Positions 4,452 to 32,708 of a stretch of 34,202 nucleotides of DNA are shown here, piece after piece. How positions within the stretch are numbered: the first letter of the stretch is position 1; each line of letters opens with the position of its first letter. Both the position numbers and the translations under genes were made by a program. The notes under the pieces were generated by a model, which made no database searches, was not told where the DNA came from, and saw only the letters and a program-made list of their open reading frames with translations. This DNA is from Candidatus Bathyarchaeota archaeon (GTDB taxonomy: Archaea > Thermoproteota > Bathyarchaeia > Bathyarchaeales > Bathycorpusculaceae), in NCBI GenBank assembly GCA_026414525.1, contig JAOAIV010000003.1, positions 1 to 34,202 on the forward strand, in the 5' to 3' direction.

Positions 4452-4649
4452 TCATGGTCCTGTAAACCCGCACTTGGGACACTTGTAGGGACGCCCGAAT
4501 TTACGGCATTTCCCGCAGCGTTTTATCTGTATTTCCCCGCAGTTGGGGCAGAGGAATTTCGTTGCTTCTGTCCCAGGCTGGATGGGTTTACTACAACTCG
4601 TGCAGGTTACTAAAGTTAGTGTTGCTGCTTTTTCTGACATCAAGCTCAA
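4452..4649 (-). CDS. Small zinc-ribbon protein (COG2888-like; predicted nucleic-acid binding)
   Basis: Four CxxC knuckles: CTSC, CPNC, CGKC, CPKC; adjacent to aEF1B as in other archaea. Start may be the internal MSEKAA. Confidence 0.85.
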
Positions 4650-4752
4650 CTCCGTGGCGTGTTCTGTAATTGTAGGACTTCCTTATATCTGCTATGCTTC
4701 TTTTCGCAAGTTTATTATTCCAGTTTCCCGTCTATGTTTTGGAGGAGCCATT

Positions 4753-5787
4753 TTGGGAGTAAACTTTCGCGATATTGTCCCGAAAATAGTTGTTAGACTA
4801 GAAGATTTAAGCGGGAAAACAATTGCTATAGACGCTTACAATGCTTTATATCAATTCCTCGCCATCATCCGCCAACCAGACGGCACTCCCCTAAAAGATC
4901 GCACGGGCAAAATTACCAGCCACCTCAGCGGCTTATTCTACCGCACAAGCAACCTTGTGGAGCTGGGTATAAAGCCAATTTACGTTTTCGACGGCACCCC
5001 GCCTATTCTAAAAGAAGTTGAAATTAAACGTCGCGCAAAGGCCAAGGCAGAAGCCACAATTAAATATGAGCAAGCTTTAGCGGAAGGCAAAGTTGAAGAA
5101 GCCCGTATGTACGCGCAAGCAACCTCGCGTTTGCACGATTACATGATGGAAGACAGCAAAAAGCTTCTCACGCTAATGGGTATCCCGTGGATTCAAGCTC
5201 CAAGCGAGGGCGAAGCACAAGCGGCGCACTTGGCTAAACGTGGCGACGCAGACTATTGCGCAAGCCAAGACTATGATAGTCTGCTTTTTGGCGCGCCACT
5301 TCTTATCCGAAACGTGACCATTTCTGGTAGAAGAAAGCTTCCAGGCAAGAGTGTTTACATCGATGTCGTTCCTGAAGTAATCAAGTTGGCTGACGTGCTA
5401 AAGGAGTGCGGAATAACCTATGAGCAGTTAATCGACGTAGGAATACTTATTGGCACAGATTTCAATCCAGATGGTATAAAGGGCTTGGGCCCAAAAACCG
5501 CTCTAAAACTCATAAAAGAGTATGGTTCGCTGGAGAGGGCTTTGCCGCATATTAAGAACGCCGAATTTCCGCATCCGCCAGAGACAATCCGGGAATTATT
5601 TTTGCGCCCCCACGTAAGCGATAATTACACGTTGAAGTGGCGAGAGCCAAATGTGGAGGGCATTATCGCGTTTTTGGTTGGCGAAAAAGACTTCTCAGAA
5701 GACCGTGTGATAAAAGCTATCGAGAAAATGAAGCAAGGAAGCAAGAAGCTTGTAGGGAAAACTACGTTGGAAAAATGGTTTGAGTAA
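4753..5787 (+). CDS. fen: Flap endonuclease 1
   Basis: GVNFRDIVPK...LSGKTIAIDAYNALYQFLAIIRQPDGTPL, YVFDGTPP, APSEGEAQAA, SQDYDSLLFGAP, LIGTDFNPDGIKGLGPKTAL; C-terminal PIP-box-like TTLEKWFE. The tracked ORF starts at 4543, but homology begins at the in-frame TTG at 4753. Confidence 0.95.
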   Translation: MGVNFRDIVPKIVVRLEDLSGKTIAIDAYNALYQFLAIIRQPDGTPLKDRTGKITSHLSGLFYRTSNLVELGIKPIYVFDGTPPILKEVEIKRRAKAKAEATIKYEQALAEGKVEEARMYAQATSRLHDYMMEDSKKLLTLMGIPWIQAPSEGEAQAAHLAKRGDADYCASQDYDSLLFGAPLLIRNVTISGRRKLPGKSVYIDVVPEVIKLADVLKECGITYEQLIDVGILIGTDFNPDGIKGLGPKTALKLIKEYGSLERALPHIKNAEFPHPPETIRELFLRPHVSDNYTLKWREPNVEGIIAFLVGEKDFSEDRVIKAIEKMKQGSKKLVGKTTLEKWFE

Positions 5788-5790
5788 TGG

Positions 5791-6499
5791 CTAAAATTTT
5801 TGCCCATACTCGCCTGTTAATGGAACAAAAGCTACTCCGCCAAGGTTTTCCTGTCTAATTTTACCATCCGCGCTCTTCAAGACTTTTATGAGACTTTGAA
5901 ACAGCGAGACACTACCAACAGGAATCAACATAATACCATTAGGCTTCAGCTGCTCTATAAGAGGTTTAGGCACATCTGGCGCTGCCGCTGTAACTAAAAT
6001 ACGATCATATGGCGCTTTTTCCTCATAGCCCTTGGAGCCGTCGGCGTTAATTATTGTTACGCGATCAGAATAACCAGCGGTCATAAGGTTTTTCTTAGCG
6101 TTATCCGCCAGTGCCTTGACTATCTCCACGGTGTAAACATGACCCCATTCGCTTCTAGGCACATCCAAGGGGGCAATTACCTCCGCTATTGTAGCGGCGT
6201 GCCAGCCTGAACCAGCGCCGACTTCTAGAACTCTCTGGCCGATTTCCAGATTTAGGGCTTCGTTCATTATGGCAACCATGTGTCGCCTAGCCCAAGCCTA
6301 CGCTGGAGCTATGTGGCGCAGAAACTGTTTGACCGAAGCCTATTGGAAGCGGCGTATCAACACTGCCGTATTGCTGCATGTCTGGAGGCAGAAATTTTGC
6401 GCGGGGCACGGACCGCATTGCTTTGATAACTTTTGGCGTCTTCAGGATGCCCTGCTTTATCAAGCTGTCAACGAGTTTTTCCCATTCTGGCTTTTCCAA
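5791..6499 (-). CDS. pcm: Protein-L-isoaspartate O-methyltransferase, interrupted by a 31-nt candidate BHB intron (6282..6312); spliced product 225 aa
   Basis: Exon 1 ORF (6499 down) encodes MEKPEWEKLVDSL...DTPLPIGFGQTVSAPH; exon 2 (from 6281 down) encodes MVAIMNEALNLEIGQRVLEVGAGSGWHAA. Joining them with 31 nt removed gives one continuous Pcm ORF of 678 nt. Confidence 0.9.
6282..6312 (-). other. Candidate archaeal bulge-helix-bulge (BHB) pre-mRNA intron in pcm
   Basis: Minus strand: ...tctg[CGCC][ACA][TAGCTC]cagcgtaggctt[GGGCTA][GGCG][ACA]catggtt... 4-bp central helix CGCC/GGCG, 3-nt bulges ACA/ACA, 6-bp inner helix UAGCUC/GGGCUA (one G-U). Cleavage between bulge nt 2 and 3 removes 31 nt and yields tct gcg cca cac atg gtt (SAPHMV). 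Confidence 0.8.
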
Positions 6500-6728
6500 A
6501 TTGAAACACCATTCAGAATATGTCGCTGGTTCCTTTTAACATGTATGGTTATTGGAGACGTGTATTTACTAAAAACAGCGTCTTACGCTTTGTTTTGCTT
6601 AAAATTGCTTGATGTAACTGTGTTTCAAATAGGCTTTTCTTATGTTCAAGCATTATTTTGTGAACTTGAGTGTTCTAGTGTAAATCTTTTATACCATAGT
6701 GCATATGCATTAAGCGAGGAAACGGGTC

Positions 6729-7484
6729 ATGTTTAAGCTAAAAGTATCTGATGCTAAACTCTTGCGGGATATGGTTTCCGCCATCTCAATTCTCGTTGAT
6801 GAAGCTACCTTTAAAATTGATCTTGAAGGTTTAAAATTGCGGGCTATGGATCCTTCCCGCGTTGCCATGATTGATTTTGAGTGGCCTAAAACAGTTTTTG
6901 AGGAGTATTTTTGTGAAGCCCCTACAAAGATGTGCATAAATATAAGCGAGTTGCTGAGGCTGCTTAAGCGGGCAGGGAAAGATGAAGCAGTAGAGTTATC
7001 TCTAGATGAGAAGACAGGGCGGCTTCAAATAAAAATAACCGGCAAGTACACTCGCAATTTTAATATGCCTACACTTGAGGCGGCTGAGGAGGCGGTCCCA
7101 ACTCCGAAGATAACCTTCAACGTGAAAGCCAAAGCGACGACGCAGGGACTAAGCCAAGCCATAGAGGACGCGCAATTGGTCAGCGATCATGTGCGTATAG
7201 AAGCGGACGCGGAGAAGCTTGTACTAAACGCCACAGGCGACTTAATGGGCGCGACAATTATGCTTCAGAAGGGAAGCGACGCGTTGCTGGACTTGGAAGT
7301 AAAAGAGAATTCAAAGGCAACATTCAGTTTAAGCTACTTGGCAGAGATAATAAAGGCGGCTTCTGCCACGTCAGACATTGCTACCCTTGAATTCTCAACA
7401 GACATGCCCATTAAAATAGACTTCCAACAAACAAAAGAGGGCAAGTTGACGTTCTTCCTCGCGCCTAGAATCGAAACAGAATGA
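6729..7484 (+). CDS. pcn: DNA polymerase sliding clamp PCNA
   Basis: 251 aa; LKLRAMDPSRVAMIDFEW, LRRLLKRA-like LLRLLKRAGKDE, C-terminal MPIKIDFQQTKEGKLTFFLAPRIE. Confidence 0.95.
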   Translation: MFKLKVSDAKLLRDMVSAISILVDEATFKIDLEGLKLRAMDPSRVAMIDFEWPKTVFEEYFCEAPTKMCINISELLRLLKRAGKDEAVELSLDEKTGRLQIKITGKYTRNFNMPTLEAAEEAVPTPKITFNVKAKATTQGLSQAIEDAQLVSDHVRIEADAEKLVLNATGDLMGATIMLQKGSDALLDLEVKENSKATFSLSYLAEIIKAASATSDIATLEFSTDMPIKIDFQQTKEGKLTFFLAPRIETE

Positions 7485-7494
7485 GAACGTTACA

Positions 7495-8550
7495 ATGGAA
7501 ATGACAAAGGCGAGATTTACACAAACAGACCTCGCCAAATATCCTTTTCTTAAAGAGACTGCTATGCTTGTGAAGCAGTTAGACTTAAAAATTGAAGAAT
7601 TAACAAATCCTGATATAGCGGCGATCCTTAATCGTGCCGAGGAACGGGTCAGAGAAGCAATAATGTCTCTTTCGGTTGGGGAAAAGCGTGAAGCCGATGT
7701 GGAAATCCCCTCTTTTCCTGTTGCTCTTCTCTTGGTGATAAATACAAAAAATTCCTTCATTAAAAAGCGCTATGCGCTAGCCGAAGCTAAGCAAGCTTTC
7801 GTCGATATGCAGACTGAAAGTAGTGAAAAGATTTTGTTAATTGCACGCGATTTCGACTGGAATATAGAGCTAACGCGCTTTTCTACTATGCCTCTCGAGT
7901 TTGCGATTAGTTTTACTGATTATTTGAGGAACACAACGCATTTACGAGATAAAAAGTGGAAGCTTGTTAATCGCCTTTTGGTTAATGGTAAAGTTTATCT
8001 TAACAAGCAGGATGTTGCACGGCTTCTGCAAGAAGAAGTGCAAAGGCGCATTGAAAAAAGGTTAGAGGTAACAGAGCTTCCCGTATTGCCAGAGAAAATA
8101 GCAGAAATAACAAAGCGTCTTTTGGAATTAGCCAAGGAAAAGATTGGCCAAGAAGAGATGGAAGGGCTTCCAAAAGTTGTAACGCAATCAGCTTTCCCAC
8201 CGTGCATTCTGGCGCTTTATGAAGCAGCATCGAAAGGTCGCCATCTCTCGCATGTAGGCCGATTCACTTTAACCTCTTTCCTAGTAAACATTGGCATGCC
8301 GCCTGAAAAAGTAGCGGAGCTCTTTAAAAGTTTCTCCGATTATAACGAAAGATTAACACGTTATCAAATTGAGCATATCGCTGGAGAACGTGGTTCTAGA
8401 ACACGGTATACCCCGCCGCGTTGTGTAACCTTGCAAACCCATGGGGTTTGTGTAAATCCTGATGTTTTATGTCGCCGCGTTAGTCATCCATTGAGCTATT
8501 ATAAGCGCAAACAAAAGCAGTTAAGTTCTAACTTGCCAAAATCAAATTGA
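7495..8550 (+). CDS. priL: DNA primase large subunit
   Basis: Conserved FPPCILALYEAASKGRHLSHVGRFTLTSFLVNIGM...YNERLTRYQIEHIAG...YTPPRCVTLQTHGVC (Fe-S cysteines). Confidence 0.93.
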   Translation: MEMTKARFTQTDLAKYPFLKETAMLVKQLDLKIEELTNPDIAAILNRAEERVREAIMSLSVGEKREADVEIPSFPVALLLVINTKNSFIKKRYALAEAKQAFVDMQTESSEKILLIARDFDWNIELTRFSTMPLEFAISFTDYLRNTTHLRDKKWKLVNRLLVNGKVYLNKQDVARLLQEEVQRRIEKRLEVTELPVLPEKIAEITKRLLELAKEKIGQEEMEGLPKVVTQSAFPPCILALYEAASKGRHLSHVGRFTLTSFLVNIGMPPEKVAELFKSFSDYNERLTRYQIEHIAGERGSRTRYTPPRCVTLQTHGVCVNPDVLCRRVSHPLSYYKRKQKQLSSNLPKSN

Positions 8551-8656
8551 CAAACAACTCTGTTTCATTTTAGAATCTAATGAATAGGCTGTTAATGGTT
8601 AAATTTGGGTGCACAGAATAATTTTTATCACACAACTGCGGCAGAAGAGGGTTAAT

Positions 8657-9886
8657 GTGGCTTCCCGAGATTTCGTTTATAAAAAATTTTCAGAGTTTTA
8701 CAGCAGCCCTTCAACGGTTATACCTAAGATTTCCATGATCGGTCAACGTGAAATTGGTTTTCTCCTCTTCAAGGAACACGTGATGTTAAGACATAAAAGT
8801 TTTGAAAGCACTAGCAGTTTAAAGCGTTTTCTCGGTGAAACGGTTCCTTCAGATGTCTATCACTCCTGTGCCTACTATGAGAATCCAGAAGCCGAGATGA
8901 ATAAGAAAATCTGGCTCGGCGCGGACTTAGTCTTCGACATAGATGCTGACCACATACCCACGCCATGCAATAAAATACATGACGAATGGACTTGTAACAA
9001 ATGTGGCTTCGGTGGGAAAGGCGTAACACCTGACGCTTGCCCAATCTGTGGCGGACAAAAATTTGAAACAAAAACTTGGGCGTGCGAACTTTGCTTGAAG
9101 ACCGCAAAAGAGGAAACTGCAAAGCTGCTTAATATCTTAGAGCAGGACTTCGGATTCTCATTACAAGAGTTACATGTATTCTTTTCAGGCCACCGCGGAT
9201 ATCATGTTCAAATAGAAAAGGAGACTATCAAAACTTTAGATGCCATGGCACGTAAAGAAATAGTGGATTATGTTTCCGGCCTTGGACTAGCTATATTAGA
9301 GGATGAAACGAAAGACAACACGCGACGACAGAGACATAAGATTTCCTTCAGTCTACACGACTTCGGTTGGCACAAACGCTTGAAATTGGGACTTCAAAAT
9401 TTTGTTATGAATGCTACAAAAGATGACTTAAATAATGCGGGCGTAAAAGTAAATTACAAGGTTTTTTCGGAAAACCGCGAAATCCTGCTTAAGCGTTGCA
9501 TAGAAGAGAATCGTTGGAGCAGCGTTCGAGGAATCGGTATTACCACATGGAAAAAACTCGCCAAGCACGTGAAGGATCTTGAGTCAGCGAAAATTGACAC
9601 CGTTGTAACCACAGACATTCACCGTTTAATCCGAATGAACGGTACTTTACACGGCAAAACAGGCTTATTAAAAGTCGGATTCCCAGCTAATCGCCTCGAA
9701 AACTTTGACCCTCTAAAGGAGGCAGTAGCTTTTAAAGAAGGTACAGCCAAAATCTCTGTATCGGAAGCGCCTGAATTCAGGTTAGGTGATGATACTTTGG
9801 GTCCATACAAGAATCAAACGGTGGAACTTCCTACTGCGGCAGCGGTGCTGTTAATCTGCAAAGGCAGAGCTGAGGTGGTGCAATAA
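8657..9886 (+). CDS. priS: DNA primase small (catalytic) subunit
   Basis: LVFDIDADH catalytic Asp motif, zinc motif CNKCGFGG...CPICGG, FFSGHRGYHVQ. Likely GTG start at 8657 (MASRDFVYKKFSEFY); tracked ORF begins at 8609. Confidence 0.94.
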   Translation: MASRDFVYKKFSEFYSSPSTVIPKISMIGQREIGFLLFKEHVMLRHKSFESTSSLKRFLGETVPSDVYHSCAYYENPEAEMNKKIWLGADLVFDIDADHIPTPCNKIHDEWTCNKCGFGGKGVTPDACPICGGQKFETKTWACELCLKTAKEETAKLLNILEQDFGFSLQELHVFFSGHRGYHVQIEKETIKTLDAMARKEIVDYVSGLGLAILEDETKDNTRRQRHKISFSLHDFGWHKRLKLGLQNFVMNATKDDLNNAGVKVNYKVFSENREILLKRCIEENRWSSVRGIGITTWKKLAKHVKDLESAKIDTVVTTDIHRLIRMNGTLHGKTGLLKVGFPANRLENFDPLKEAVAFKEGTAKISVSEAPEFRLGDDTLGPYKNQTVELPTAAAVLLICKGRAEVVQ

Positions 9887-9889
9887 GAT

Positions 9890-10438
9890 ATGTATGAAGA
9901 GATTTATGCTGCGTGGCGGTGCGAAGCAGAAAGCAAAGCTCTTGGCAGTTTGCCCGCTGACTTTTACGCTCGTGTAACGCGTTATTTGCAGAAGATTAGA
10001 GAAGAAAGTAGAATGCTTGATAAGAAATCGGTGAAGGCAACGCTTCTTGAGCATGAGCTACAACATGCCAGACGAATGGTCAAAGCGCTGGTTTGGCTAC
10101 GTTACAGAAAGCTACTTCTAATTATTAGTAAAAAACAGAAAGTTCCAGCAGAATCATTAACACCCGAAGAAACTAAATTGTGGACACACTTTTCTGCCTT
10201 CGCTGAGGAGTATCAAAAGTTTGCAGAGCGACTTCTGCGGGGACAATTTTCTACAGACAAAACGCCTATACCACACAAACGCGTTATCTTACGCTTCTTG
10301 AAGGATATTCCCGCAATTATTGGCTCGGACATGAAAACCTACGGTCCATTTTTGGTTGAGGACATAGCATCTGTACCTGCAGAAAACGCAAAAATCTTGA
10401 TTAAACAAGGCTTCGCTGTGCCAGTTGAGGCTTCTTAA
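9890..10438 (+). CDS. GINS complex subunit (Gins51/15-type)
   Basis: 182 aa immediately after priS; helical N-terminal GINS-like domain (LLEHELQHARRMVKALVWLRYRKLLLII) and C-terminal B-domain-like YGPFLVEDIASVPAENAKILIKQGFAVPVE. Confidence 0.85.
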   Translation: MYEEIYAAWRCEAESKALGSLPADFYARVTRYLQKIREESRMLDKKSVKATLLEHELQHARRMVKALVWLRYRKLLLIISKKQKVPAESLTPEETKLWTHFSAFAEEYQKFAERLLRGQFSTDKTPIPHKRVILRFLKDIPAIIGSDMKTYGPFLVEDIASVPAENAKILIKQGFAVPVEAS

Positions 10439-32629: not shown

Positions 32630-32708
32630 GGGGTAGTCGTCTAGCTTGGTTTAGGATACCAGCCTGGGGCGTTGGCGATCCTGGGTTCAAATCCCAGCTA
32701 CCCCACCA
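32630..32708 (+). tRNA. tRNA-Pro (anticodon GGG), CCA encoded
   Basis: Acceptor GGGGTAG/CTACCCC, anticodon stem CCAGC/GTTGG with loop CTGGGGC, T-arm CTGGG-TTCAAAT-CCCAG, 3' ACCA. No intron seen. Confidence 0.92.

Follow-up and report, generated by a model that had tools for sequence, protein, structure and literature searches.

Evidence for a bulge-helix-bulge type mRNA intron in the pcm gene of Bathyarchaeia and two further archaeal classes

RESULTS

The interrupted pcm gene

The window analyzed here is a stretch of 34,202 nucleotides from a Candidatus Bathyarchaeota archaeon (contig JAOAIV010000003.1), and it carries on its minus strand a gene whose reading frame is broken by a short insert (Table 1). 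The interrupted gene is pcm, encoding protein-L-isoaspartate O-methyltransferase (Pcm), a protein-repair enzyme. The frame of exon 1 reads ...DTPLPIGFGQTVSAPH and then meets a TAG, and the frame of exon 2 opens with MVAIMNEAL. The insert between them, read from position 6312 to 6282, is ATAGCTCCAGCGTAGGCTTGGGCTAGGCGAC (31 nt). Exon 1 ends with ...GCG CCA C, its last nucleotide at 6313, and exon 2 begins with AC ATG GTT, its first nucleotide at 6281. Deletion of 6312 to 6282 gives a single open frame of 225 codons and an intact Pcm of 225 amino acids; the predicted joined exons read GCGCCTCACATGG without the insert. The spliced protein is a full-length match to the PCMT profile (positions 4 to 208), and the Pcm of P. 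furiosus (1jg1) aligns over the splice junction, where GQTVSAPHMVAIM is identical. The start of exon 1, a TTG at 6499, is assumed. The break falls within the most conserved motif of the protein, not between domains.

TABLE 1 Features of the interrupted pcm gene and of its predicted intron, in window coordinates
Feature	Position	Strand	Remarks
pcm exon 1	6313..6499	(-)	Pcm N-terminal part as far as SAPH; PCMT profile positions 4-62; spliced ORF open
Putative intron, BHB type, 31 nt	6282..6312	(-)	Predicted cuts 6313/6312 and 6282/6281; insertion point conserved in 103 distinct genes
pcm exon 2	5791..6281	(-)	HMVAIM to stop; SAM-binding methyltransferase core; PCMT profile positions 61-208
In-frame TAG inside intron	6287..6289	(-)	Terminates translation of unspliced message
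Central helix 5' arm CGCC (exon 1)	6315..6318	(-)	Partner 6284-6287; 4/4 pairs in every intron-bearing row inspected
5' bulge ACA, predicted cut after nt 2	6312..6314	(-)	ACA/TCT/ACT/TCA/ACG among 103 genes
Inner helix 5' arm TAGCTC	6306..6311	(-)	Every inner pair with two-sided changes
Inner helix 3' arm GGGCTA	6288..6293	(-)	Every inner pair with two-sided changes
Central helix 3' arm GGCG (intron)	6284..6287	(-)	GGCG to GGTG jointly with exon CGCC to CACC, four lineages
3' bulge ACA, predicted cut after nt 2	6281..6283	(-)	ANA or TNA among 103 genes

The insert and its flanks can be folded into a bulge-helix-bulge (BHB), CGCC-ACA-TAGCTC-(12 nt)-GGGCTA-GGCG-ACA. Four pairs form the central helix and six the inner helix, and the outer helix consists of G-C, U-A, one mismatch, and two G-U pairs. 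The original prediction, made without database searches, had proposed a split minus-strand pcm with a 31-nt insert at 6282 to 6312, and its coordinates and anatomy held exactly. Its BHB geometry (a 4-bp central helix, two 3-nt bulges, and a 6-bp inner helix) also held, and its claim that cutting between bulge nucleotides 2 and 3 removes 31 nt and restores SAPHMVAIM held at the sequence level. A BHB fold in a single sequence is weak evidence: a motif scan that required four Watson-Crick central pairs, bulges of 3 nt, and an inner helix of six or more pairs gave 33 comparable folds on the two strands of the window. The decisive evidence comes from relatives.

The neighborhood of pcm, from 4543 to 10438, contains replication genes: a FEN1/XPG-type nuclease, PCNA (divergent from pcm), the large and small subunits of DNA primase, and Gins51. 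An Rfam search of the window returned no family for the pcm element, and its sole match was tRNA-Pro. The tRNA-Pro(GGG) gene, at 32630 to 32708, is without an intron.

The same insert in related genomes

The spliced protein was searched against 120 related genomes, and the junction was then located in the DNA of each pcm. Many of the genes proved to be split at the same residue, and others were uninterrupted. In all, 103 distinct pcm genes have an insert of 20 to 48 nt, always at the same nucleotide and in the phase c/ac of the His codon in SAPHM. Excision restores SAPHM (His-Met) in all inspected rows, even where the unspliced codon would specify Leu, Gln, or Arg; the restored junctions in relatives were judged by sequence only. 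The central helix keeps its four pairs, and the two bulges their 3 nt, in each of the 75 rows of the first alignment of relatives and in all further intron-bearing rows inspected. The intron sequences themselves differ among the more than 100 genomes, single-contig genomes included, that share the insertion point. The point of excision is ambiguous by 0 to 3 nt in 102 of the 103 introns, and the CACAT direct repeat that the original prediction had pointed out at both sites is present but peculiar to the window genome. A shared insertion point, fold, and restored frame in 103 pcm genes are far beyond chance.

A covariance model search placed intron-bearing genes in several orders of Bathyarchaeia and also in two further classes of the same phylum (families f34 and f43; family f33), a breadth beyond what could be seen in the window itself. 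Candidatus Bathyarchaeum tardum (L137) is one of the intron-bearing relatives. About 35 relatives are precisely without the insert, most of them nested within intron-bearing clades.

The longest introns of the set, at 48 nt, are those of L209 and L210 (family f17), and they form long G+C-rich hairpins. In many genomes of genus g12 (G012, G038, G048, G055, G059, G062, G065, G068, G069, G071, and G072), matches to Pcm are very weak, with E values of about 1e-4 to 1e-7. Most of these genomes are more than 90% complete, and pcm seems to have been lost or replaced there.

Covariation and constraint

Covariation supports the fold. For the whole structure, 135 cells in 59 aligned introns were changed on both sides, against a mean of 42 after shuffling and no more than 24 for slid structures, and the observed covariation score was reached in none of 500 shuffles. 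Two-sided changes occurred at all seven inner pairs, and RNAalifold, unprompted, returned the same central and inner helices. At central pair 2 (n = 103), an exon G faces an intron C in 95 rows and an exon A faces an intron U in 7; a single row has G-U, and the pair is broken in none. The switch from G-C to A-U (CACC/GGTG) took place in four phylogenetically independent instances, with both arms in agreement in all four. The codons of the exon arm are nearly frozen in intron-bearing genes: Ala is GCG in 73 of 75 and GCA, with compensation, in the other 2, and Pro is only CCA or CCT. The same Ala and Pro codons are variable in intronless genes.

The outer exon-exon helix is another matter. Its first G-C pair is constant, the second pair forms in 21 of 59 rows, and at the third position every row except one has a C-U mismatch. 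The canonical hBHBh' criterion, an outer helix of at least two Watson-Crick pairs, is not met across the 59 aligned introns. The pcm motif is a relaxed BHB and not a canonical hBHBh', because the outer helix is unsupported beyond one G-C pair; a relaxed BHB with a weak outer helix had been predicted, and the pairs past the first G-C are indeed not conserved.

Both pcm exons are under purifying selection. Between the window gene and that of a same-genus relative, Ka/Ks was 0.045/0.787 for exon 1 and 0.044/0.763 for exon 2, a ratio of about 0.06 in both, and eight other gene pairs gave a similar pattern. The original prediction had suggested three comparative checks, and each spoke for an intron: alignment of related pcm genes revealed a conserved position with precise absence in some relatives, inspection of CGCC/GGCG revealed compensatory change to CACC/GGTG in four independent lineages, and the covariance search in pcm orthologues recovered the spread given above. 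It had also stated that varied decay elsewhere in the pcm genes of relatives would refute an intron. No such pattern was seen, and the gene is otherwise intact.

In-frame stop codons

Among introns whose length is divisible by 3 (21, 30, 33, 36, and 48 nt), 24 of 24 contain an in-frame stop, where shuffling leads one to expect 28% on average. This count is inflated by relatedness. Over the full set, 74 of 103 genes have their first stop within the intron. Even with this caveat, the stops, far more frequent than after shuffling, suggest selection against translation of the unspliced message.

Splicing enzymes

The window genome, like most of its relatives, encodes two EndA paralogues. The first is nearest to crenarchaeal-type catalytic subunits (3p1z and 2cv8). 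The second aligns with the M. jannaschii EndA (1a79) and has a Thr at the position of the catalytic His. EndA enzymes of the (alpha-beta)2 or epsilon-2 type are able to cut relaxed BHBs, and the two paralogues point to an enzyme of this kind, with its quaternary structure here inferred. RtcB is also present in the window genome and is fragmented by contig ends; its pieces lie on contig C90 and at the end of contig C106.

Search for other introns and other breaks in pcm

A scan of G010, an intron-bearing genome in a single contig of 869 kb, gave 232 BHB folds that rejoin split open reading frames, compared with 241 to 274 control folds with wrong bulge sizes. Those candidates with long flanking frames that were inspected appeared to be boundaries of adjacent genes, for example, homocitrate synthase after isocitrate dehydrogenase. 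No second mRNA intron was found in the G010 scan, which is insensitive: the pcm intron itself failed the coding filter, and weak cases may be missed. Other interruptions of pcm were likewise set aside. The stops in Pcm of f38 and f54 genomes are ordinary C-terminal stops and not introns, and the break near residue 108 in the intronless pcm of G067 (L103 / L289, G067:C22) is a frameshift at a G run and not an intron. That frameshift may be an assembly error or recent decay.

DISCUSSION

Proposed mechanism

We consider it very likely that the 31-nt insert in pcm is an archaeal mRNA intron of the BHB type; splicing is inferred, and there are no RNA data. What the sequences establish is the conserved position, the fold and its covariation, the frame restored by excision, selection on both exons, and the presence of the enzyme genes. 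Cleavage by EndA and ligation by RtcB are inferred from the fold, the covariation, and the enzymes, without transcript evidence. In the proposed pathway, the CGCC before the exon 1 bulge would pair in the pre-mRNA with the GGCG at the 3' end of the intron, enclosing a hairpin and leaving a bulge of 3 nt at either side. The tRNA-splicing endonuclease EndA, as a heterotetramer, would cut both bulges after the second nucleotide, and RtcB would join the exons, which would restore CAC AUG, the His and Met codons of the conserved motif GQTxSAPHM. An unspliced message would be translated only into or slightly past the intron, before any of the methyltransferase core is reached; Pcm would come from spliced mRNA alone.

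Alternative explanations

Three other explanations were considered. In programmed ribosomal bypassing, as in phage T4 gene 60, the ribosome would hop the hairpin, with matching codons for take-off and landing, and the mRNA would stay intact. In favor of this, the gap in the window gene is flanked by CAT and CAC, both His codons, with a hairpin between them. However, only 6 of the 103 genes have take-off and landing codons for one amino acid, and in 2 the codons are identical; bypassing also leaves unexplained the exact 3-nt bulges, the CGCC/GGCG exon-intron pairing with its compensatory changes, and the frozen exon codons. We regard it as very unlikely.

A split Pcm, made from two separately translated genes with exon 2 using its own ATG and with no splicing, is also very unlikely. 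Exon 2 does open with an ATG (6277 to 6279), shortly after the stop of the upstream frame. That ATG, however, is the conserved Met of SAPHM, which is also found in nearly all uninterrupted homologues. A split protein would have no need for a covarying exon-intron helix, for fixed bulges, or for an exactly kept His codon shared between exons, and the break lies inside the most conserved motif and not at a domain boundary.

A pseudogene or assembly error with a coincidental fold, a possibility that the original prediction had left standing and for which the 33 chance folds in the window and the CACAT repeat flanking the insert might speak, is all but excluded and was rejected, since more than 100 genomes, single-contig ones among them, share the insertion point with differing intron sequences, and both exons have Ka/Ks near 0.06 in a gene whose remainder is intact.

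History of the intron

With a BHB intron as the preferred reading, its distribution can be set on a tree built from 138 Pcm proteins. The best tree needs 12 changes of intron state, of which well-supported branches force 3; shuffled labels need 31. The tree is only partly resolved, and the counts of origins and losses are uncertain. Many related lineages are without the intron; most intronless groups sit within intron-bearing clades, and the absence is exact. The simplest reading is one old origin followed by repeated exact losses, the single origin being an inference. The intron was likely present in the common ancestor of much of Bathyarchaeia and may be older still, with exact loss afterward in several lineages. 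Transfer of the intron together with the gene remains possible and is not excluded.

A bolder reading is conceivable. The pcm intron may be an ancient, retained regulatory element that predates the split of the three classes, and its splicing may gate the production of Pcm, with selected stops holding off the unspliced message. If this were true, few mRNA introns known in prokaryotes would be as old or as widely kept.

Comparison with known BHB introns

Among archaeal protein-coding genes, most descriptions of spliced introns concern cbf5 of Crenarchaeota. The cbf5 pre-mRNA introns of Sulfolobales and Desulfurococcales are 16 to 44 nt long, have relaxed BHBs, interrupt a critical codon, and show lineage-specific loss (PMC2738675). 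According to a 2020 paper (PMC7714728), cbf5 holds the only additional BHB intron that had been reported, and a 2011 PNAS paper on archaeal introns (Tocchini-Valentini) reportedly adds further protein-gene introns in Thermoproteales. The original prediction knew of no pcm example, and we likewise found no report of a pcm intron in the open-access literature searched. A practical caution follows for annotation: intron-bearing genes of this kind get called split genes or pseudogenes.

Archaeal tRNA introns, including the relaxed forms hBH and HBh' (PMC6379350), have in common with the pcm intron a 4-bp central helix, 3-nt bulges, an inner helix, and presumed cleavage by EndA. Unlike them, the pcm intron interrupts the reading frame of an mRNA and has no tRNA body around it; it retains both bulges but has almost no outer helix. 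A known EndA-type BHB in an mRNA 5' untranslated region resembles the pcm case in having a BHB in mRNA; in pcm, however, a reading frame is interrupted and restored.

The closest likeness is to the cbf5 introns, in that each is a short relaxed BHB in an mRNA that is lost in some lineages. Membership in the cbf5 family itself, defined by the cbf5 gene and its conserved intron position, is not met, the gene being pcm by its matches to the PCMT profile and to P. furiosus Pcm, and the clades differ as well, being Bathyarchaeia and two other classes of the phylum. Splicing has been shown for cbf5, whereas for pcm it is inferred, without RNA evidence. A second widely conserved case, in another gene and in other major lineages, would show EndA-mediated mRNA splicing to be broader and older than thought, and pcm introns would allow the gain, retention, and loss of introns to be compared outside eukaryotes. 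On present evidence, the pcm intron likely belongs with the cbf5-type BHB mRNA introns, as an unusually widespread and, within the limits of an open-access literature search, apparently new member of that kind.
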